DNA from: Phycisphaerae bacterium
GTDB taxonomy: Bacteria > Planctomycetota > Phycisphaerae > Sedimentisphaerales > SM23-30
NCBI GenBank assembly: GCA_016342495.1
Contig: JAEIOG010000005.1
Coordinates: 1-64,000 of the forward strand
DNA length: 64,000 nt
Direction: 5' to 3'
Made by a program: the position numbers and the translations under genes. Shown in pieces: positions 1,766 to 31,966 of this stretch. The notes beneath the pieces are model-generated. The model made no database searches. It was given only the letters and a program-made list of their open reading frames with translations, and was not told where the DNA came from. Positions within the stretch are counted from its first letter, which is position 1, and each line of letters starts with the position of its first letter.

Positions 1766-3472
1766 TCAGTCTTTAATCGCTTCTTCGCCAACTTTAATAT
1801 TATTATATCGCAGCAGAGTGCCCTGGGCCCGATAGTAATTCATAATCGCCAGATCATAATTGATCATTGTCTGCACCAGGTAAAACTGGCTATTAGTCAT
1901 ACGCTGGTCGGCACTGACCTTTCGATCAATAAAATCAGGGGTCAGCGAAGTGCGGGCATCATTATCCTGGGAAATCATATAGCTGAGCAATTCTTCTTTG
2001 TCGGTCTGAGCTTTATTGGCCCGGCCCGCTAATTCATCATAAGTATATTGAACATTATGGGCAGCGATATTGACATCGGCGATTATCTGCTCCTGGATAT
2101 TCTTTAGAGATAATCTGGCCTGCTGCAATTGCCGCTGAGATTTCAGATAATCGGCCTGAGCGGCCCGGTTGGCAATTGGCAGTTCAATATTGACGCCAAA
2201 AGTATAACTGGTCGTCTGGCCATCCCATTGGCTGTCCCAGGCATCGGAACCTTCCACGCCAGCGCCGGTGATTCTCTGTTTTAATACCATATCAAGCCGG
2301 GGCAGCCGCTGATTTTTAGCGACATCTTTGACTATCTCGGAACTCTTTAGCCTTAGCCGCTGATTAATCAATTCAGGCCTTACCCGCAAAGCAATTTCGG
2401 TTGCTCCTGCGGCATCAGGGTTAAATTCTCTATTAGAAGGATTATCCAGGGTAATCAATTCCCACTTACCACTGATCGGCAGTTCCGGGTCATTCAATGA
2501 AGCCAACAGAATTTCCTGCTGCTTCTGAACATTATTGATGGCAGAGACCATATCGGCCTTGCCCTGTTCCAAGACTCCTTTGATACGCGAAACCGACAAG
2601 CTCCGGCCATCATAGTCATCACGCTGATGGGCCCTTTGCAATGACTGTTCGGACCGGTCAATAAGCTGTTGGAGAATTTTCACCTGCTGACGAGCCTGGA
2701 AAAGACGCCAGTAATTGGTTTCAACAGAAGCCGCTATCTCAATAACGGTCTGCTGGAACTCTTGTTTGCTGGCCCGGTAATCATTTTTATAAATTTCAAT
2801 TCGGGCCCGATTAACTTCAATGCCAAAATCCCGCAGTAAAGGCTGATTCAATTGCATTTCCAGACCATATTCCCAGAATGGGTCATAATATCTGGTATCA
2901 TCTTCATACATATCCCGATAGCGTCTTAAAGTCTGAGCCACTTCGACGGTAGCACCGGTGGGCAGCTTTTTATTAATACCAATGGAATACTGATCCGAAT
3001 GAGTTCTCACAAAGGGATCGACAGGAATACGGATAACTTTGGATCGGCCATTTGAGGTAATTGTCCGATCATAAAATGTCGCATCAATATTAGCTCTGTC
3101 ATCCCGGCCCCATTGCGATGAACCAAACAATACCGCATCAAAGGCCGCCTCTGCCGATGTGACATCAGCCATCTTAATCGAAGGTTCAAAACGACTGACC
3201 TGAATATCAAGATTGTGCTTCAATGCCCGGGCAATTAATTCCGACAAAGAAATTTCCATAACCGTGCGGCCTTGCGAATCAAGAATCGAGGACTTGTCGT
3301 TGATAATATCTGATATTAGTAGCAGTTTGCCTTGGTACTCCTGCTCCATATCAACATTTTGCTCTTCTGCAAAAACAGTATTGACGGCAATAACTGCTAC
3401 AATGACAACCAAACCGGTAATCAGACAATTGGCATTCCAACATCTTTGTTTTCCTTGAACTTCATGCTTCAT
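1766..3472 (-). CDS. TolC-family outer membrane efflux protein
   Basis: Signal peptide, two-fold coiled-coil OMP architecture (QPLLRDFGIEVNRARIEIYKNDYRASKQEFQQTVIEIAASVETNYWRLFQARQQV). Shine-Dalgarno AAAGGAA upstream. Confidence 0.85.
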   Translation of the reverse strand: MKHEVQGKQRCWNANCLITGLVVIVAVIAVNTVFAEEQNVDMEQEYQGKLLLISDIINDKSSILDSQGRTVMEISLSELIARALKHNLDIQVSRFEPSIKMADVTSAEAAFDAVLFGSSQWGRDDRANIDATFYDRTITSNGRSKVIRIPVDPFVRTHSDQYSIGINKKLPTGATVEVAQTLRRYRDMYEDDTRYYDPFWEYGLEMQLNQPLLRDFGIEVNRARIEIYKNDYRASKQEFQQTVIEIAASVETNYWRLFQARQQVKILQQLIDRSEQSLQRAHQRDDYDGRSLSVSRIKGVLEQGKADMVSAINNVQKQQEILLASLNDPELPISGKWELITLDNPSNREFNPDAAGATEIALRVRPELINQRLRLKSSEIVKDVAKNQRLPRLDMVLKQRITGAGVEGSDAWDSQWDGQTTSYTFGVNIELPIANRAAQADYLKSQRQLQQARLSLKNIQEQIIADVNIAAHNVQYTYDELAGRANKAQTDKEELLSYMISQDNDARTSLTPDFIDRKVSADQRMTNSQFYLVQTMINYDLAIMNYYRAQGTLLRYNNIKVGEEAIKD

Positions 3473-3624: not shown

Positions 3625-6600
3625 TTAGTTTATTTCAACAGTCTGCTCAAAAAGCGTCTCATCATCATCATTTACAATAGTTATGGTCAAATCCTGAACC
3701 GGCTTTGCCAGAGCGGATTTTTTCATATAGAGAGAAAACGCCGAACGCCCCCAGTCAATAATAATACTGCGAACTGTCCCGCTCGAACGATAAGTATATT
3801 TGTCTGACTTACCTGAACGTTTGAAATTTTCTGCCGGAATCGTTTCGGTTGTCGTACCATATTTGACAGTCACTTTTTTGTCAGTTAAGTCTATGGTTCC
3901 CAGAGAAGAAGTTATCTGACCCTTTACTTTCAATTTATTGTCGGCAGCTCCACCATTATAAACATGATATGAACTGAGCTTCAAAAGTTTATCAGCATAT
4001 CCCTGGCAGAATTTAAGCGATGTTTTTTTGGAGCCTTTACGTTCAGCAGCGCCCTGGGCATAATAATTACCCACCGCAATAGTAACAGGCACCGGCTCAG
4101 CTAAACCGGTAAGGTCAAGCTTCTTGCCGGTAACAGCAAATATTTTCTTATCCAGATCAAGATGCAATGAAATATACGAACCATCATCCAGCTTCGTCTT
4201 ATATGAATATCTGTTCTTAGTGGAAGACTTCTTGAAATCTTCGCTACTGGTGTCAATGGTAAACTGCCATGGACCAATACTCATAAAGTAAGTCGAATCC
4301 AATACATCCAAAGGCGTCGCCTCAATCGGACCAACTACCGTTAAGGAATCGGTACTGGATTCTCTGCTGCGGCCGGGGTTGGCTTTGATATAAAGCCCGG
4401 CTAATACAGCCGGCTCGGCTAGTAACCAACCGTCGCCATCGACTAATATTTTAGTCGGATCATCGACATTAGGGTCAGCATCTTCCGGATCAAAGAAATT
4501 ATCCCATAAATCCAGAACCTTGCCATAATTGTCATCATAATAAGTCCATTGCATATTAGTATGGCTATCAGTTTCGCTATAGCGTACCAAAGTCAATTCA
4601 TCAGCATCACCGCTGGCTTCATTATCTTCATCAGGCCAGTCGGCGAGCTCGGCATCAACAGCGAATATTCTTTCGCTAACCAGATCATCGCCCTGACCGG
4701 TAACAACTTCATCACCAACTTCAAAGCCGCCAGCTAATATACGCTGATATATCGCCGGATACAGGTCAAAGGCCACTGCCTGATCAGAATTATCGACTTG
4801 GAAAGCTGCCAGACCATCAAATTCAACCTTGAACACCCATAATTTACCTGCGGTATCCTTGGCCAGCCAGGCGGCAAAATTTTTCTTGCCATATTCAGGG
4901 ACGGCTGTCTCTTCATAACGCAGACAATTCACACCTGCAATGGTTTCCTGACTGCAGATAAATCTAAAGCTTGTCCCGGCATAACCACCCTGTCCGCGGT
5001 AAAATCTTAATGTCCCCGGTTTAGCCTTAATAAAATCTACTTCAGAAAAGTCTGAGCTGTTACCGCTGAAAACCGGCAACACCTTGCCATAATAAGCCAA
5101 ACGCCAGCCATCAAGATTATTGTTGGCTACCATGTCGGCATCACTCGGATCAAAATAATTATCATCTTCGGTATCCAGCAATGTCGTATCCCAAAGCTCC
5201 AGCATCAAACCGACATCCGCATGGAAATATTGCCATTGATTACGGGTGTCAGGGTCAACATCCGTGGAAGTTTTAACCCGAACAATCGATTCGTTAAAGA
5301 TTGGCTGCCAGAGCCATTGCTCAGTGAATGAATCAAATTCTTTCACGAAAAGTTCATCGCCTTCACCAGTTTGGAATTTATTTATCGCTGCGGTCAAATC
5401 ATCCGCAGCATAATCACCGGCGATAAGTTTGAAATGGAATCTGTCACTGGCCTTATAAATCACATCATCATCCAGCTCACTTAATAGTTTAACTTCATAA
5501 ATATCCGATGGCGTGCCCGGCCTTGGGAATTCATAATTGCTACCGAGCTTATATCTATAAACCCAAATCGCACCCAGCGAATCCTTTGCGATATATAAAT
5601 TGAATGATGGGACAACCAAAACAGTATCATCTTCATCTTCGGTAGCTTCATTAGGCACACTGACAGCAGTCCTTACCCATTTCAACCATCTCACCGAACT
5701 GAATGTTATCTCATTGAATGTATCGGTAAATTCATAGCCTTCATATTTGCCCTGCCCGAGATAAGTCTTCACATCACCATTACCAGCTGCCAGATAAGGC
5801 CATTGCGAAAAATCTGCACTATCAGATTCAAAATACCCGCCCCAAAATGCCAGACGCCAGCCATTGGCATTATAAACCGTTTGGCCATCACGCTGATTTA
5901 ATACCAAACCCACACGATGATGATAATAATTAATATTATCTGCATTTTCAGTAGCTCCGGTCCAGACTTTCACCGCAATTAACTCACCATCATAATGAGG
6001 GACAAAATCAATCGTCTCGGTAAAGCTGATTATCTTGCTGGTCACCGCGTCATCACCTGACCCCACCACCAGCGTATTGGATGCATCATTTACATCATCA
6101 GCATTGACATCGCCGGCAATCAACTTAAACAAAATATGGTCATCAGCGATTGTGCTGAAAGCTACAGCATCCAATATAGTCTCAGCATCTACCAGAAGCT
6201 TATCATTATATTCATAACGCAGCACCCAGATATTACCTTCTTTATCCCTGGCTAAATGCAGAGTAAATGGATAAATACCCGCCGCGGCCAAAGTTGGCTT
6301 ATCAATAATGCTTTGGGCTTGCTGTTCCCATTTCATATAACGCACACCGCTTAGTTCTGTGGTCGGATAGGTGAACTTCTGATAATACAGCACCCCATCT
6401 TTATTGCCATTACCGACAAATGTCCGGGTTATTGTCTGGTCGCTGGGAACACCAATAAAATTAACATTCTCAAAATTATCGCTGTCCTGATCAAATTCTC
6501 TTGCCTGCCGCCATGAGTCACCGGCAGGGTCATCTGCATCATCAAGCACATGAAAATATAAACCTTTTCCAGGGCTATAATAATACCAGTCAATATCAGT

Positions 6601-7782
6601 TTCTGCGCCGAAAGGCCCACGATACCATTTCACTTTCACCAAATCAGCATCGTCATAACCTGGTGCAGTTGCGCCAAAGGCGACAATTTGCGATGTCACC
6701 ATCTGCTGACCTGAACCAATTGAGATTGAATTCGATAAATTATTTACATCATTAATATTATAATCGCCAGCCATCAGCTTAAAAATCATATACTGCTCAG
6801 CCAACTGCTCAAATGTAACCGCTTCCAATAGATTGGTGGCATCAACTATCACCTGTTCATCAACAGTATCTTCATTTATAATATAATAAAGCACCCACTG
6901 CATACCATCGGCATCGGTTGCCATAATAATAGTAAAATCATCTATCTCCGAGGAGCTGTCCGCTTCCTGTGTCCATTGCAATGCATTTACGCCAAGATAA
7001 GTAATATCAGTAAAGGACTGCTGATATACCAGACCATCATATTGACCGCCTCCGACATATCTGCGAACGGTCTGATTAGCCGCTTTAGCAAAAGGCACTT
7101 CGGAAAAATCATCGCTGTCATCACCAAAAGCCCGCACCACTTCAACGCTATTTATCTTGATAGGCTCTGCCGGGATACTTTTTAATAAACCACCCTGAAC
7201 TTCATTGACCTCATCATCATTTAACAGTTCAGCGTCTTTCATCAAATCTAAAACTTCCAGACCATCGACAACCATACCAAAAACAGCGTAACCTGGATTA
7301 CTGGAAGAGGGATTCCATTGCGGGTTATCTTCGATATTCAAGAAGAATTGGGCCGTAGCAGAATCCTGACTGCTGGTACGAGCCATCGCTATGGTTCCCC
7401 TTACATGCTTAATCGCAGCATCGGTCTCCAGTTCTATCGGAGCCCCAGGTTTATGATAAAAATTAGGGTCTGTCATATCAATATCATCAGCGTCAAAATC
7501 ATCCGCTGTTATGAAATCATACAGATCTTCATCATATATACCAGCCTGAGCGATATAAAAATCTTCGGTTACCAACCGATGAACAATAACATCTTCATAA
7601 AAATCATCTTCGACATAGCCCAGAAAGTTTTCCACCGTAATCGGTGCCAGGTCATCATAAAGCTCTATGGTCATATCGCCATAATTCGTGCTCATTTTCA
7701 CGATTGTTCTATTAGCCAATACATTTCCGGCCAATAATAACAGCAAAAAGCTAATTAGTAAAAATCGATATGCAGTTTTCAT
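3625..7782 (-). CDS. Secreted cyclophilin-type peptidyl-prolyl isomerase with four ~225-aa C-terminal repeats and a two-fold repeated tail
   Basis: Signal peptide; cyclophilin motifs STNYGDMTIELYDDLAPITVENFLGYV, VHRLV, GTIAMARTSSQDSATAQFFLNI. Repeats marked by RRYVGGGQYDGLVY / RTFVGNGNKDGVLY / KTYLGQGKYEGYEF / RFYRGQGGYAGTSF. Confidence 0.88.
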   Translation of the reverse strand: MKTAYRFLLISFLLLLLAGNVLANRTIVKMSTNYGDMTIELYDDLAPITVENFLGYVEDDFYEDVIVHRLVTEDFYIAQAGIYDEDLYDFITADDFDADDIDMTDPNFYHKPGAPIELETDAAIKHVRGTIAMARTSSQDSATAQFFLNIEDNPQWNPSSSNPGYAVFGMVVDGLEVLDLMKDAELLNDDEVNEVQGGLLKSIPAEPIKINSVEVVRAFGDDSDDFSEVPFAKAANQTVRRYVGGGQYDGLVYQQSFTDITYLGVNALQWTQEADSSSEIDDFTIIMATDADGMQWVLYYIINEDTVDEQVIVDATNLLEAVTFEQLAEQYMIFKLMAGDYNINDVNNLSNSISIGSGQQMVTSQIVAFGATAPGYDDADLVKVKWYRGPFGAETDIDWYYYSPGKGLYFHVLDDADDPAGDSWRQAREFDQDSDNFENVNFIGVPSDQTITRTFVGNGNKDGVLYYQKFTYPTTELSGVRYMKWEQQAQSIIDKPTLAAAGIYPFTLHLARDKEGNIWVLRYEYNDKLLVDAETILDAVAFSTIADDHILFKLIAGDVNADDVNDASNTLVVGSGDDAVTSKIISFTETIDFVPHYDGELIAVKVWTGATENADNINYYHHRVGLVLNQRDGQTVYNANGWRLAFWGGYFESDSADFSQWPYLAAGNGDVKTYLGQGKYEGYEFTDTFNEITFSSVRWLKWVRTAVSVPNEATEDEDDTVLVVPSFNLYIAKDSLGAIWVYRYKLGSNYEFPRPGTPSDIYEVKLLSELDDDVIYKASDRFHFKLIAGDYAADDLTAAINKFQTGEGDELFVKEFDSFTEQWLWQPIFNESIVRVKTSTDVDPDTRNQWQYFHADVGLMLELWDTTLLDTEDDNYFDPSDADMVANNNLDGWRLAYYGKVLPVFSGNSSDFSEVDFIKAKPGTLRFYRGQGGYAGTSFRFICSQETIAGVNCLRYEETAVPEYGKKNFAAWLAKDTAGKLWVFKVEFDGLAAFQVDNSDQAVAFDLYPAIYQRILAGGFEVGDEVVTGQGDDLVSERIFAVDAELADWPDEDNEASGDADELTLVRYSETDSHTNMQWTYYDDNYGKVLDLWDNFFDPEDADPNVDDPTKILVDGDGWLLAEPAVLAGLYIKANPGRSRESSTDSLTVVGPIEATPLDVLDSTYFMSIGPWQFTIDTSSEDFKKSSTKNRYSYKTKLDDGSYISLHLDLDKKIFAVTGKKLDLTGLAEPVPVTIAVGNYYAQGAAERKGSKKTSLKFCQGYADKLLKLSSYHVYNGGAADNKLKVKGQITSSLGTIDLTDKKVTVKYGTTTETIPAENFKRSGKSDKYTYRSSGTVRSIIIDWGRSAFSLYMKKSALAKPVQDLTITIVNDDDETLFEQTVEIN

Positions 7783-8343
7783 CTATGCACCTTTCGTCTC
7801 TGGACAAAATATTAAAAAACCTCTAAAAACCTGTCATTTCTCTTTTTATTTTGGGAAACAAGTCTCAAATTTGATTTCTAGTGGCTATTTTCAGCAAAAA
7901 TCGTCAGCTCAGAGCCAACCCGTTCCAACTATAAACCCAATAATCAGTTAATTGGGCCTAAGATGCTTTATTATAAGGTTTTATTGCAACTTGTCAACGA
8001 CAACAAATAGCAATTATATCCTCAGGATTCATGCATATTCATAGGTGAAATTCAAAAAAAACACTACAAAGCAGACCAAATGCATAAAAACAGCCCCGCT
8101 GATTACTGAAGATTTTAACCTGACAGGGACTAGTTTATGATGAAGTGGCTATAACAGAGCTAAAACGGTTGGCCATTCTTTTGACTTTGAGTATTTGACT
8201 GTAACGCAGCTAATGACGATATGTGTGGTATTTAGGAGCTGTAAAGGGGGAAGATACTACAAACGCTAGTGTGAATATTATACCTTTGGCAGTGTCCCTG
8301 GCAAGTAATATCCCAACATGTAGTCCAATTAAATGCAATAAAA

Positions 8344-13990: not shown

Positions 13991-14596
13991 TTATTCTTCT
14001 TTGGCTGGCATCTTATCCAGGACCTTATCAACAATGCCATACTCAACTGCTTCAGTTGCGTCCATCCAGTTATTGCGATCACAATCTTCTAATACCTGCT
14101 CAAAGCTCTTGCCGGTATGCTCGCCAATAATCTTATACAGACGATCACGAACCCGCAGCATTTCTTCGGCTTCAATTTGCAAATCAGTCGCTGGGCCGGT
14201 AATATGACCGCCAATTAAAGGTTGATGAATCATAACTGTGCTATTAGGCAGCATATAACGCTTGCCAGCAGTTCCACTCAACAGTAAAACCGCGCCCATC
14301 GATGCGGCCATACCCATACAATATGTACAAACATCGCATCGCAAAAAACGCATAGTATCATAAATCGCTAAACCTGCTGAAACCGACCCACCCGGCGAAT
14401 TAACATAAAAATGTATATCACTTTTTGAATCTTCATTACTGAGAAACAACATCTGAGCAATAATCAAATTCGCCGAATCATCCGTTACCGGACCACCTAA
14501 AAAGATAACTCTGTCTTTCAGCAAACGTGAATAAATATCATATGCACGTTCGCCACGACCTGTCGTCTCTACTACCATTGGAATCAAACCGGACAT
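13991..14596 (-). CDS. clpP: ATP-dependent Clp protease proteolytic subunit (second copy)
   Basis: [32 protein letters not shown]; the Ser and His positions are intact, while the Asp position reads as Asn in [21 protein letters not shown]. Confidence 0.95.
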
Positions 14597-14652
14597 AACT
14601 GTCCTCCTATTTATTAATTCTTAATTGCTAATTATCAATTGTTAATTAATAA

Positions 14653-15291
14653 TTATTTCTTATCAGTTTCTTCATGAGCCAGAATCTCATCAACCACACC
14701 ATAATCCAATGCCTCCTGGGCATCCATATATCGGTCACGTTCGATTTCTCTTTCAATTTTCTCTAATGGCTGGCCGGTATGATTTACTAATATCTGATTA
14801 ATCATTTTCTTAGTCTTAATGATTTCTTCAGCCTGAATCTGTATATCACTTGCCTGACCTGAAACCCCACCCCATGGCTGATGTAACATCACCTTGGAAT
14901 GTGGCAAAGCAAAACGCTTACCCTTAGTGCCCGCTGCCAGAATAATTGCTCCACCAGAAGCTGCCCGGCCTATACAATAAGTACAAATATCCGAATGAAT
15001 AAACTGCATCGTATCATAAATCGCCATCGTATCATCGACACTGCCACCGGGGCAATTCACATATAAATGAATATCACTGCCACGCTTCATATTATCTAAG
15101 TACAATAAAGACTTGATTATCACCGAAGCGATTGTCCCCAGTGAGGTCAAATATGATGGATCCAAGGGCATATCTAAAAAGATACACCGGTTCTCCAGCA
15201 ACATTTCATTCAGACCCATTTCACGAGTCCGCTGATAGCCCGAAGGCCCCATCCGGGGCGATATATACATCTGTGGTGTTTCCAGATTCAT
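14653..15291 (-). CDS. clpP: ATP-dependent Clp protease proteolytic subunit (first copy)
   Basis: IGRAASGGAIILAAGTKGKRFALPHSKVMLHQPWGG; ERDRYMDAQEALDYGVVDEIL. Confidence 0.95.
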   Translation of the reverse strand: MNLETPQMYISPRMGPSGYQRTREMGLNEMLLENRCIFLDMPLDPSYLTSLGTIASVIIKSLLYLDNMKRGSDIHLYVNCPGGSVDDTMAIYDTMQFIHSDICTYCIGRAASGGAIILAAGTKGKRFALPHSKVMLHQPWGGVSGQASDIQIQAEEIIKTKKMINQILVNHTGQPLEKIEREIERDRYMDAQEALDYGVVDEILAHEETDKK

Positions 15292-15500
15292 CTGCTTTTC
15301 CTTATTTTAACAGTTAACGTCCTATAATTAACATCATTTCTCTATCTCGATAGCTACAAGAACTCATAAATATTCAGCATGCTGACTATGTGACATAATA
15401 ACAATCTATATCACCTGTCCAACCTTCGCCTTAGATACTCGCATACACACCATCAAACAAAGAAATTCACGCCCGATAACTATATCAAGCCTTAAATGTC

Positions 15501-15528
15501 GATGGCCAACACTTCTGCGTTGGCCATC
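15501..15528 (-). other. Hairpin downstream of tig (possible terminator or processing signal)
   Basis: GATGGCCAAC-ACTTCTGC-GTTGGCCATC, perfect 10-bp stem, 14 nt beyond the tig stop; no strong U-run. Confidence 0.5.
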
Positions 15529-15542
15529 AAACTATTCACTTA

Positions 15543-17045
15543 TTACTTATCGGTTTTCGGTGGCGTTCTTTTGACTTTTTTTTGTTCATCATCGGTAGAT
15601 TTTTCATCTTCGTCAGTTACAGCCTTCTTTACAGTCTTCTTTGTGGTTTTTTTCTTAGTTGCTTTCTTTGTAGTTTTTTTCTCGGTAGGCTTAGCATCTT
15701 CTGCCGGTGCATCTACAACTTCTGCCATCTCTAAGATTCGTTCCAAAGCCTTCTGATCGCAAATCTGCTGGGCAATACCTTCTAAACGGCCTTCTTTTGC
15801 CAGTTCATCGCGAACTTTTTCAGGACGACGACGATACATTCCTGCAATCTGAGCAATTGCGGCATTTACTTCGCCATCAGTTGTTTCGATTTCCAAAGTC
15901 TCAGCAACTTTTTCCATAATGAAGCTCATCTTCAGTTCATTACGAGCTTCTTCGCCTACTGATGCACGAAGCTGTTCGATATTCTGATTGATCTGTTCTG
16001 CCGGCATTCCATTGCGAAGTAATTCATAATAACGATTAGCCAATGCTCTTTCGCTGTGACGCGCCGCTGCTGCTTCTGGCAGCTCAAATTCAACATTACT
16101 ACTTAGATATTCACGAACCTGAGCAGTCATTGCATTTCTTGAATCCTGATCTGCCTGATCTTCAAGATTTTCTTCAATCATGCGTTCCAATTCACTTTGG
16201 TCAGAAGTGCCAAACATTGTAAAGAACTCGTCGTTCATCTCGGCAGGTTCCAAACGCTTGATTGCTTTGACTTCTATGGTAATTTCAGCTTTTTTGCCGC
16301 GCCATTCGCTCATTGGATGACTTTCGGGAACTTCAACTGTAAATTCTTTCTTATCGCCAGGTTTGGTGCCATCAAGAATCTCAGCCATATTTTCAACCCG
16401 AATGCCTCTTACTGAACATGGGCTCACCCACAATGGACATTCTTCTACAACGACTGGTTCATCAATACCTTCAAGCTTGATGGTAGCTGATCCGTCAATA
16501 GAGTCATCGGTCTGGGCTTTTTCGATATCAGTCATCTTGCCATGACGACGACGTAGCTGTTCCACTGTTTCTTTTACGCGATCTTCGGTAATATCAACGA
16601 TTTTCTTTTCGATCTTAATGCCTTCCAGCTTTGGCAATTCAAATACAGGTTTGACTTCTACTTCATATTCAAAAGTAAAATCACCTGTTTCAGGCAAAAT
16701 AATGTCATCAGGTTTGATGTCTGGTTCGCCTAAGATATCAAAATCTTCTGAATCTTCGATCTGCTCAAATGCCTGAGCCAGCAAACGGAACTTGGCCTGG
16801 TCGATAATTTCACTGCCAAAACGCTTTTCGATCAGGCGACGAGGTGCCCGACCCTTACGAAATCCCGGAACCGCCGCTTCTTTGCCCAGATCACCATATT
16901 GACTATCCAATTCCTTATCAATTTCTTCGCGTGGCACGACAACACTGATTTTCTTTTTCCATGGACCGCTTTCTTCGATATTAACGGTACAGTTCATTTT
17001 TTCTTCTACTTCTTCTAATTGTTCTTTTGCCTGTTCTTCTGACAT
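15543..17045 (-). CDS. tig: Trigger factor
   Basis: N-terminal KKISVVVPREEIDKELDSQYGDLGKEAAVPGFRKGRAPRRLIEKRFG signature; PPIase and C-terminal chaperone regions; adjacent to clpP as in many bacteria. Confidence 0.95.
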   Translation of the reverse strand: MSEEQAKEQLEEVEEKMNCTVNIEESGPWKKKISVVVPREEIDKELDSQYGDLGKEAAVPGFRKGRAPRRLIEKRFGSEIIDQAKFRLLAQAFEQIEDSEDFDILGEPDIKPDDIILPETGDFTFEYEVEVKPVFELPKLEGIKIEKKIVDITEDRVKETVEQLRRRHGKMTDIEKAQTDDSIDGSATIKLEGIDEPVVVEECPLWVSPCSVRGIRVENMAEILDGTKPGDKKEFTVEVPESHPMSEWRGKKAEITIEVKAIKRLEPAEMNDEFFTMFGTSDQSELERMIEENLEDQADQDSRNAMTAQVREYLSSNVEFELPEAAAARHSERALANRYYELLRNGMPAEQINQNIEQLRASVGEEARNELKMSFIMEKVAETLEIETTDGEVNAAIAQIAGMYRRRPEKVRDELAKEGRLEGIAQQICDQKALERILEMAEVVDAPAEDAKPTEKKTTKKATKKKTTKKTVKKAVTDEDEKSTDDEQKKVKRTPPKTDK

Positions 17046-27931: not shown

Positions 27932-30900
27932 TTATTGTACAAAAATGCCATTGGCCAGCCAGTTCTGACATAGGATTGCCATATCATTTATGTCGATGAG
28001 TTCATCCCCATTTAGATCGCATTGCGGCAATATTGAAGAATCGCCGAGCCACTCCTGGGATAAAGCCGCGAAGTCGCCCAGTTCCACTTTCATATTATCA
28101 TTAATATCACCAGCGGGGAACTGCCATGCTAATAGCGGATAGGCTGGCTTATCACTGCGGAATTTCCAAACTGGTGGCGTACCATCATCAGAACCGAAAT
28201 CCCAGTCAGAGCCAGTAAAAGAGGTGCTGTCCTGAAGTTCAGCAGTAGTTAGTGCCATTCCCGCACTTGCTGTTGCAACCCCGGCGACGTCACTATCCCA
28301 GGCACATTGCAGAACAGTGCCGCTGTCTGGCGGGCAGAAACCATGAGCATTTTCATTTTCTGGAGGGACATTTAACTCTACCGCGGCATAACAGTTTTCA
28401 ATGGTTTTGGTATTATGAGATATAAATCCCGCAATAGTAATACCTGGGCTGACTGCATTTATTGTGCCTGATGCATAGCAATTCTGAATTGAATTACGAT
28501 ATATACCGCCTGTATATCGTGCAAAACCCGCGGCAAAGCCATCTTTACTGTTAATGTCTATAGTTACATTGCTAAAACAATTTTCAATTATATTTTCGTT
28601 AATTGTGTGGCAAAAAGCACCTACAAAGCAAGTAGGGCTGTTTATTGTTATTGTACCAGTTACATAGCAATTTCTTATAATAATTTCACCGGCATTACCA
28701 GCATTTGGGGGATTGCCTGAAATAGCGCAAAGCCCACCTATTATCTCATAGTTTTTCCCATTGTAAATGTAGTTGATATTGGTCAGGCCAAAGTTTGTAA
28801 TATTGAAATCATATTGACAAAAATTAATTATTCCAAAAAACCCCAATGGTTCAAAGTAACTATGACTGACAGATTTATTATCGTCAAGGTTGATAGTAAA
28901 GTTATCTATAATATGTCCATCACCATCAAATTTTCCAGCAAAAGGATATGCTGTGTTTGTATTACCATACATAAAAAGCCCTGAGGCAATAAATGCTTTC
29001 TGGAAAGTGTGACCTGCCAGATCAATGTCACTGGTTAGTCGAAAGCATCTATTCCATAATAGTTTTTCCGTTCGAAAAGCAAACAGACAATCAATGTCAT
29101 TGATAAGGAACGGCTCTTGTTGTGTGCCGCGGCCATCTAAGGGGATATGGATGCCGTGATCATTTTGATTTTTAAGTTTTGGACCATAGCCCGGATCAAG
29201 CTGCCAGATTTCGGTATCCCAGCCGGGGAAACTGGCCGGGTCCTGCATTTCAGATAATGTAAGCATGATTTCATCATGATAATTGCCATAGGCGCAGCTT
29301 TTACAGCCGTTGACGGTCCCGGTATTTTTACCGCAGATTGAACCAGCAGTGTTTTCCCATTCAGGCAAGGAGCAATCAATAAAGGTGCTGGCATAACAAT
29401 TAGCTATAGTGCCGCTATTTTCGCCACAGATAGCTGCCAGATATTTGGGATTAATGCCTGAATCACCGCCATCAATATAATAATCAATATACATGTTCAT
29501 TTTAACGAAGCAATTCTGGATTGTTCCAGCATTTTGCCCGCAAATTCCTGCGATATGTTGCGGTGGAGCTGTGTTTTCAAGTTTAATATTATAGCTATTG
29601 TTGGACATGGCAATATTTTTGACCACGCCTGAATTTACTATACCGCCAAATAATGCCAGATGGCTATAATGCTTTTCAAAATCGTTGCGAAAAATAATGT
29701 TAAATGTCAGATTATTTATCGCATGGCCATTTCCATCAAAACAGCCACTGAAAGGAGTTCCCTGAAAATCAGATTCATGCAAAGCAGTGTCCGGAGCTAT
29801 TACTGCCCGATCAAAATACCAGCTTCCCAGATCAATATCGCTGGTCAGCATGAAATTATTTTCCCATAGTCCCGGACATTTCCCTGCATAGGTCAAGGCT
29901 TCTACACTGTCAATGATAAATGGATTTTCAGCAGTGCCAGCTCCGTAAAACGGGATTTTCGGAGCCTGATTATTGACATGCTGGTTGGGTCGGGGCAGAT
30001 AGCCATTTGTGATTATCCAGTTGGTATTTTCACTGAAAGTAGTCAGGGCTTGCGGGGTTATAGGGAAGGCTATGCCATTGTCGTTTCCGCTGTGATAGCC
30101 AAAATGGCAATCATTTATTTCGCCATAATTATCCAGACAGAACGCTGCTCGTTGGGCATTATATGAGGAGGTTGTTCCCCAGCTGTAACAGTGTTCTATC
30201 TGGCTAGAACTTGCCGCTACAAAACCGGCTATTCGGTTATCATTTGAAGAATCGCTTGTATCAATGATATTGCAAACTGAATAGCAATCGCTAATCTGAG
30301 GGGTATAATCTATCGCAAGACTGAAACCGCACAATCCCGCAATGCTGTAACGATAATTATTGTAGTAGATTGCATCCATAAGCTCAATTTTACCGGTTGT
30401 ATAGCATTGTTTGATGGTGCCAGCATTATTGCTGCATAACAAGCCTGCTATTACTGCATTGGCATAAAAATAAGATTCTTGGCTTTGATAATTGAGTTTT
30501 ATATGAGCGTTTTCAATACCGAGGTTTTCAATCATGCCGGTTGACTTGCCAAATAAGCCGATATTGGAATACTGTTGTCTTGGGTTTTCATAGTCTACAA
30601 TTTTACCGGTATCGATTTGCATGTTTCTTATCACATGTCCATTCCCATTAAAATGACCTGTGAATCCCTGTTCTTCATATGAATTGTATTGTTGACCAGG
30701 TGTTTCATCAGTGATAATGGCACCGCAAAATATCTTATCAGCATCGAAAACAATATCAGCGGTCATGATAAAATTCCGGTCAAATATCGCTGGCATCATT
30801 CCGATCAATTCCAGGTCCATCTGACAGGCAATAGGGAAGGGCATTTCATTTGAACCATCGCCGTTGTTGCCGATGGATATATAAATATCAACCGGTTGGC

Positions 30901-31966
30901 CCGGCGGACAATGGCCGCCGATGCTGTAAGATAAGCCAATAGCAGTATTGAACATACCAAAGAGACTGTTGACATGGTGAATACTGCCAACTGTCAGGCC
31001 AGCCTGTTCTATTAAATCACATGTTTCCGGCAAATCGCAGCCAATTACATCTGGGATGCGGCAATAATGAAAAGCAGCCAGCTGCGGCATCTGGCCATCT
31101 ATTGCGACCCAGGCCCCTGCGCCATAGCTTTCGGAAGTTATAAAATCCCAGCCAATATCGATGAAATTATGTGGATTATAAAATTGGTGACTGGTTAAGG
31201 CTCGGAGATTGGAAAAATTGTAAGGATAATTTGATTCGGAAAAAGGAAAGTTTGGTGCCAGTTCGCAGTTCCAGATGCAGTTTTCTATAGTGTCATTATA
31301 GTGGTCATAGCCAAAAGCATTGCCGCTGGTATTACCGCTGTAATAGCAGTTAAGCATTTTTCCGGAATTGAGATCACAAAATCCTATTGCGTCATGAAGA
31401 ATATCGACTGTTGAGTAACAATTTTTAATTTGTGCATTAGGCCCGATCCCCCAGGCAAAAGAACAATTGCCATAACCGGTGCTGTCTATCTGGCCGGTAC
31501 AGAAACATTGTTCAATAATTCCTTGATTTGCATATACAAATGGAGCAGATTCGTCCATATTGCCACTGAAATTGATGTCAGCAAGCCCTACCCGAAAAAC
31601 ACTACCATTGACTTCATGAATAAAACAGGCTTCACCATCACTGATAATGGTCAGATTAGAGATAATATGGCCATCACCTTCCAGCGTGCCGTTAAATTCT
31701 CCCTCATAAAAGGCTCTGTTAAAGCTGCCATCAGGATTATCGCCATAGCCATTGGCTTTGAGTATATCTGGGTGAATATCGATATCGTCGGTAAGGATGA
31801 AGTGGTCATCGCTGCTGACATTCACATCACGCAGTGCCATCAAATCAGCCAGATTGGCTATTTGATAAGGGTTTTCCGCAGTGCCGTCCCCGCCGCTGTA
31901 GGCCAAAAGCCCTGTTGTTAATAAATTTAACAAACCAAATACTGCTATAACACTAAATTTCTTCAT
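27932..31966 (-). CDS. Very large secreted GLUG-motif repeat protein with a PASTA-like segment and dockerin-like C-terminus
   Basis: GGDGTAENPYQIANLADLMALRD...FILTDDIDI modules; AGICGQNAGTIQNCF and AAICGENSGTIANCYAS GLUG motifs; VIGCDLPETCDLIEQAGLTVGSI PASTA-like; C-term GDINDNMKVELGDFAALSQEWL...CDLNGDELIDINDMAILCQNWL. Confidence 0.87.
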   Translation of the reverse strand: MKKFSVIAVFGLLNLLTTGLLAYSGGDGTAENPYQIANLADLMALRDVNVSSDDHFILTDDIDIHPDILKANGYGDNPDGSFNRAFYEGEFNGTLEGDGHIISNLTIISDGEACFIHEVNGSVFRVGLADINFSGNMDESAPFVYANQGIIEQCFCTGQIDSTGYGNCSFAWGIGPNAQIKNCYSTVDILHDAIGFCDLNSGKMLNCYYSGNTSGNAFGYDHYNDTIENCIWNCELAPNFPFSESNYPYNFSNLRALTSHQFYNPHNFIDIGWDFITSESYGAGAWVAIDGQMPQLAAFHYCRIPDVIGCDLPETCDLIEQAGLTVGSIHHVNSLFGMFNTAIGLSYSIGGHCPPGQPVDIYISIGNNGDGSNEMPFPIACQMDLELIGMMPAIFDRNFIMTADIVFDADKIFCGAIITDETPGQQYNSYEEQGFTGHFNGNGHVIRNMQIDTGKIVDYENPRQQYSNIGLFGKSTGMIENLGIENAHIKLNYQSQESYFYANAVIAGLLCSNNAGTIKQCYTTGKIELMDAIYYNNYRYSIAGLCGFSLAIDYTPQISDCYSVCNIIDTSDSSNDNRIAGFVAASSSQIEHCYSWGTTSSYNAQRAAFCLDNYGEINDCHFGYHSGNDNGIAFPITPQALTTFSENTNWIITNGYLPRPNQHVNNQAPKIPFYGAGTAENPFIIDSVEALTYAGKCPGLWENNFMLTSDIDLGSWYFDRAVIAPDTALHESDFQGTPFSGCFDGNGHAINNLTFNIIFRNDFEKHYSHLALFGGIVNSGVVKNIAMSNNSYNIKLENTAPPQHIAGICGQNAGTIQNCFVKMNMYIDYYIDGGDSGINPKYLAAICGENSGTIANCYASTFIDCSLPEWENTAGSICGKNTGTVNGCKSCAYGNYHDEIMLTLSEMQDPASFPGWDTEIWQLDPGYGPKLKNQNDHGIHIPLDGRGTQQEPFLINDIDCLFAFRTEKLLWNRCFRLTSDIDLAGHTFQKAFIASGLFMYGNTNTAYPFAGKFDGDGHIIDNFTINLDDNKSVSHSYFEPLGFFGIINFCQYDFNITNFGLTNINYIYNGKNYEIIGGLCAISGNPPNAGNAGEIIIRNCYVTGTITINSPTCFVGAFCHTINENIIENCFSNVTIDINSKDGFAAGFARYTGGIYRNSIQNCYASGTINAVSPGITIAGFISHNTKTIENCYAAVELNVPPENENAHGFCPPDSGTVLQCAWDSDVAGVATASAGMALTTAELQDSTSFTGSDWDFGSDDGTPPVWKFRSDKPAYPLLAWQFPAGDINDNMKVELGDFAALSQEWLGDSSILPQCDLNGDELIDINDMAILCQNWLANGIFVQ

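Follow-up and report, generated by a model that had tools for sequence, protein, structure and literature searches.

The locus raises the question of why an exported prolyl isomerase should be joined to four copies of a long repeat, and of what such a protein might do. Within the window, by which we mean the whole stretch of 64,000 nucleotides that was analyzed, the gene lies on the minus strand and encodes 1385 aa. The original prediction had given its coordinates as 4405-7137, and the open reading frame is real, but that span covers the repeats only, the complete gene extending over 3625-7782. Secretion of the product, also predicted, is borne out by an N-terminal signal peptide, judged by eye to be hydrophobic and to have no lipobox cysteine. 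The features of the locus are the following:

3625-7782, minus strand: complete gene for the exported cyclophilin, its four repeats and its tail (1385 aa; open reading frame and translation)
7708-7782, minus strand: N-terminal signal peptide, residues 1-25 (translation inspected by eye)
7108-7710, minus strand: cyclophilin-type peptidyl-prolyl isomerase domain, residues 25-225 (PF00160, alignment of heads, PDB relatives)
6487-7119, minus strand: repeat 1, residues 222-432 (pairwise repeat alignment)
5824-6486, minus strand: repeat 2, residues 433-653 (pairwise repeat alignment)
5068-5826, minus strand: repeat 3, residues 653-905, containing insertions (pairwise repeat alignment)
4411-5064, minus strand: repeat 4, residues 907-1124, of the 'last' type (pairwise alignment, tree of units)
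3625-4410, minus strand: C-terminal tail, residues 1125-1385, internally two-fold (self-alignment, occurrence across the order)
7970-7997, minus strand: promoter-like site upstream of the cyclophilin gene (12/12 sigma-70 consensus positions; a consensus match only)
1769-3472, minus strand: TolC/OEP-type outer-membrane gene, the next gene, 152 bp from the cyclophilin gene (PF02321)

The four diverged repeats expected from the first inspection of the sequence proved genuine, with about 210-250 aa each and pairwise alignment scores of 119-314, far above those of shuffled sequences (mean about 36, top shuffle 75, z 13-42; 300 shuffles per pair). The motifs quoted at that time are present in the alignments, and those conserved across 25 units are R..Y.G.G, ARD..G..WV, YYH..GLVL and DGW.LA. 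The claim that the repeat is not a recognized one likewise stands at the level of sequence, since no unit scored above threshold in Pfam, a search of the whole protein against NCBIfam returned the cyclophilin only and no repeat or tail family, and a PDB sequence search with the repeat profile was empty even at E 10. A known Pfam, NCBIfam or PDB sequence family was accordingly rejected for repeat and tail alike, none having matched. Whole-genome searches located the repeat in 10 of the 13 genomes of the window's own Sedimentisphaerales family. All six matching genomes in a class-wide sample of 397 belong to this same family, as do both matching genomes in a phylum-wide sample of 392 and the one match in a pattern scan of GTDB species genomes, Sedimentisphaerales bacterium CSMAG_2046; no other family in the class sample, the phylum sample or the GTDB scan yielded the repeat. 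Judged by these comparisons, the repeat is a new sequence family of narrow distribution, and the proteins that carry it are of a known kind, the cyclophilin-headed secreted proteins. A literature search with a few sets of terms returned nothing on these proteins.

What is new at this locus, as judged from sequence, is the repeat, confined to one bacterial family, and what is ordinary in these bacteria is the joining of a cyclophilin to large exported proteins. Cyclophilin genes were found in 91 of 98 genomes of the order, and long cyclophilin-headed proteins among them carry seven FG-GAP repeats after the head (G158, G222) or two laminin-G domains (G116), while G400 has, in addition to its repeat-bearing gene, a cyclophilin head followed by an unmatched region of about 480 aa. 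The original prediction had regarded it as unusual that a large, beta-rich extracellular protein should start with a prolyl isomerase; this survey led us to reject that view, fusions to FG-GAP, laminin-G, CARDB or the tail alone being common in the order. For the order, the outcome that the prediction had itself named as refuting, namely that such fusions are common, has come about. The protein encoded in the window shares with these relatives the signal peptide, the N-terminal cyclophilin and the beta-rich extracellular modules, but differs from them in the module itself, in its own tail and in its TolC-type neighbor. With the periplasmic cyclophilins of the E. coli PpiA type it shares an exported PF00160 domain; PpiA, however, is a single domain, whereas here the domain has an insert after FxxQ and is extended by as many as four modules and by a tail. 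AquaCyps, described as cyclophilins of marine alphaproteobacteria that carry large extensions and insertions (PMC4898713), are likewise lineage-restricted bacterial cyclophilins with extra sequence, although they belong to a different phylum and are likened here by that description, not by a comparison of their extensions with the repeat. As a separate observation, a GH5-like enzyme of G093 (L130 2772-4454) has a cyclophilin at its C-terminus, and its gene is followed by another cyclophilin gene.

The surrounding DNA was read in all carrier genomes. Wherever the 5' end is readable, the gene begins with the cyclophilin and continues with a number of repeats, and the tail comes next if the contig is long enough to include it. 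Four repeats are present in the genome of the window and in G400, three in G235, two in G309, G399 and G259, and one in G008 and G253; G402 and G398, both cut by a contig end, have at least three and at least two, respectively. No repeat separates the cyclophilin from the tail in G397 (L125), and the place of the repeats is taken by two CARDB domains in G244 (L126; Pfam CARDB 1.1e-15). In a tree of 27 units, grouping follows position across genera. The clades recovered are those of the 'last', the 'first' and the type-2 units, beside a group of type-3 units; last and first units are split in 90% of bootstrap trees, while some inner forks stay open. Since the units group by position across genera, the unit types predate the genera, and on that reading, with a reservation for the inner forks, the short arrays would have arisen by loss. 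Different lineages kept different types, G008 retaining a type-3 unit and G253 and a paralogue in the window's own genome retaining type-4 units, so the repeat behaves as an exchangeable module, and no single unit is indispensable. These same facts, namely copies varying from 0 to 4, CARDB in the same place in G244 and no unit kept everywhere, are what would be expected if the repeats were a passive stalk, comparable to CARDB or Ig-like spacers, which holds the cyclophilin off the cell surface and has no binding role. This is the closest rival to the reading that we favor, and we regard it as somewhat unlikely, since the motifs conserved in 25 units exceed the needs of a simple spacer, though fold stability could explain them, and the half-barrel fold predicted for the repeat often binds ligands.

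That fold was predicted from an AlphaFold2 model of a single compact unit (unit 2 of L028), built on a shallow six-row alignment of sequences from the window and related loci. The model reached a pLDDT of 83.1 and a pTM of 0.79 and is nearly all beta, with one helix, in line with the beta-rich character first proposed for the protein. A Foldseek search of this model against the PDB placed DUF1849/EipB at ranks 1-3 (E 3e-4 to 9e-4, probability 1.00), followed by a YmcC-like protein, a putative lipoprotein (BDI_3050), RseB, LolA, LprG and others. Several unrelated depositions of one superfamily thus agree, at TM scores of 0.24-0.38 and rmsd values of 9-14 A for the leading matches (TM 0.31-0.38 for the top family), and no viral structural relative was found with E below 0.001. 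The model therefore suggests a weak resemblance, at TM below 0.4, to the LolA/RseB/EipB half-barrel fold, which we take as a lead. Half-barrels of this type have a curved antiparallel sheet of about 11-14 strands under a helical cover, and the strands and single helix of the model follow that style, though at the low TM scores given. The structural check proposed in the original prediction returned half-barrel-like matches, but with these TM scores and no support from profiles: hhalign of the repeat against planctomycete DUF3108 and LolA_like yielded probabilities of 0.1-0.3, which unrelated controls equaled, and no homology to either family was found. EipB of Brucella (DUF1849; PDB 6NTR), the best match together with the LolA/LolB/RseB half-barrels, is a periplasmic 14-stranded beta-spiral that has been likened to LolA/LolB, is encoded near bamA and has no precise role known (PMC10787603). 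The units of the window differ from all these proteins in being tandem and fused to an isomerase, and in having no sequence or profile similarity to them in the comparisons made, in which the profiles were those of DUF3108 and LolA_like. An earlier model of repeat 4 plus the tail, from six rows, reached a pLDDT of 66.8, the second half of the repeat being poorly modeled, and its Foldseek matches, mostly antibody Fabs and adhesins, had TM scores below 0.3; for the tail, this weak model gives only a hint of an Ig-like fold.

The head matches PF00160 at residues 27-212 with 108.4 bits (cut-off 21.7), and its best PDB matches are chains of E. coli PpiA. When compared with plain cyclophilins of the same genome, repeat-bearing heads have a family insert of about 25-30 aa after FxxQ, and most of them retain HR..., F[MV].Q (the canonical FMIQ in G235), MA[RN] and QFF/QFY. 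The copy in the window was first described as apparently active, a description that calls for a reservation. The catalytic-type Arg, the Phe...Gln pair and Q-F-F are retained, but this copy alone has one additional residue within F-x-x-Q (FYIAQ, where most relatives have F[MV].Q), and its pocket reads QW where relatives have L-D or L-N. We would expect isomerase activity in the heads of most relatives, as read from their residues, and are less sure of it for the window copy. In the tree of heads those of the locus do not form one clade, and the heads of G397 and G244 make up a separate supported pair, which points to a possible head replacement or strong divergence in these two genomes; orthology of the head is accordingly not proved for all loci. 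Elsewhere in the window's own genome, on contig C23, a paralogue of 607 aa (L008 3618-5441) has a signal peptide, the same tail and a single repeat, from which a part is deleted. Its head-length region has no PF00160 match and is missing the active-site blocks, and this cyclophilin is decayed and probably inactive, so an isomerase need not accompany the repeat and the tail for these to be of use. A different arrangement is seen on contig C139 (L010 2751-4631), where three cyclophilin domains are spread over two adjoining genes, one of them a double-cyclophilin gene.

The tail is two-fold inside, as originally proposed (self-alignment score 77 against a shuffled mean of 31 and a maximum of 67 in 300 shuffles). 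Of 148 genomes of the order, 24 encode the tail, in as many as 17 copies each, and it mostly ends within 25 aa of the stop in the proteins carrying it. The regions that precede it are beta-helix-like, RCC1-like, GLUG-like or LVIVD, several of these labels having been assigned by eye. From this occurrence, the tail behaves like a domain placed at the C-terminus of many secreted or surface proteins of the order. A tail family that has no Pfam match and sits on large secreted proteins order-wide (e.g. L084, L085, L087 and L009) merits a family model of its own. Taken with the paralogue that retains repeat and tail behind a decayed head, and with the laminin-G and FG-GAP domains fused to other cyclophilin heads, the large beta-rich secreted proteins that bear this tail would also suit a surface adhesin or matrix protein, in which repeats and tail attach to polysaccharide or another surface, and in which the cyclophilin only serves the folding or secretion of the protein itself, or survives as a relic. 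We consider this quite improbable, given that the head residues are largely retained in repeat-bearing orthologues with a readable head, that linkage to a TolC-type gene is untypical of adhesins, and that the repeat matches no carbohydrate-binding family.

The TolC-type neighbor matches PF02321 at 8.6e-23 (81.6 bits, cut-off 22). Nine loci have a contig that extends far enough, and in every one of them the cyclophilin gene lies directly 5' of such a gene on the same strand, the first Met of the TolC-type protein being 11-254 bp past the stop of the cyclophilin gene. The OEP subfamily of the window (E below 1e-119 to the window's copy) is confined to the window's family, the closest proteins elsewhere in the order being found at 1e-51. 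A terminator-like hairpin at 3564-3542 lies between the two genes and speaks against taking co-transcription for granted. The linkage might also be nothing but inherited gene order with no functional coupling, in a small family in which the order is common to all close relatives and in which glucokinase, a gene with no evident link, is also kept next in some members. This we judge to be unlikely: the same-strand, short-gap order persists over nine loci at 38-48% channel identity while the content of the cyclophilin gene changed, and the glucokinase neighbor is not universal, as seen in L033.

Head, tail and TolC-type neighbor thus stay while the middle changes, which suggests an exported isomerase whose tail keeps it in or on the envelope. 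Starting from what was computed, i.e. the domain order, the repeats, their phylogenetic restriction and variable copy number, the CARDB replacement and the gene linkage, we tentatively hypothesize a Sec-exported prolyl isomerase of the envelope or surface that works with the neighboring TolC-like channel, a function that we infer together with its isomerase activity, location, half-barrel fold, client, channel coupling and the role of the repeat. The conserved working unit would comprise three parts, the head with its cyclophilin domain, the tail at the C-terminus and the outer-membrane protein of the TolC type. The tail would probably provide attachment to the surface or the outer membrane, and the head would most likely isomerize prolines in exported or outer-membrane clients, possibly the TolC-type channel itself or its cargo. 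Between them, the repeats would form a replaceable array of beta half-barrels that determines how far the head extends, and may also offer hydrophobic clients a groove. Against this reading stand the low TM scores and the lack of a profile signal for the repeat, the hairpin between the two genes, the paralogue whose active site is lost, and the separate pairing of the G397 and G244 heads. A more far-reaching version, to which we give little credence, is that of a new accessory of outer-membrane biogenesis or export, in which an anchored isomerase with a variable LolA/EipB-like client-holding array is dedicated to a TolC-type channel. If both the half-barrel reading and the channel link were true, the protein would represent a foldase made for clients of the envelope. 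Little work has been done on outer-membrane assembly in this phylum, and the planctomycetes of the family are themselves poorly studied. The locus offers a natural series of 0, 1, 2, 3 and 4 units together with one CARDB swap, which makes the role of the module testable by comparison.

Several other genes were observed around the locus. In the window, the glucokinase gene (685-1791) overlaps the end of the TolC-type gene, and a glucokinase gene is also located downstream in G235 and G399. A GntR-type regulator with a C-terminal part that, by eye, is solute-binding-like lies just upstream of the cyclophilin gene in three relatives (L126 672-2048, L033 8213-9592 and L090 2789-4222) and is not found in the window. 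Also recognized by eye, two adjoining clpP-like genes stand beside a trigger-factor-like gene at 13991-17045 of the window, and a secreted protein of 1344 aa with many GLUG-like repeats and a dockerin-like C-terminus is encoded at 27932-31966.
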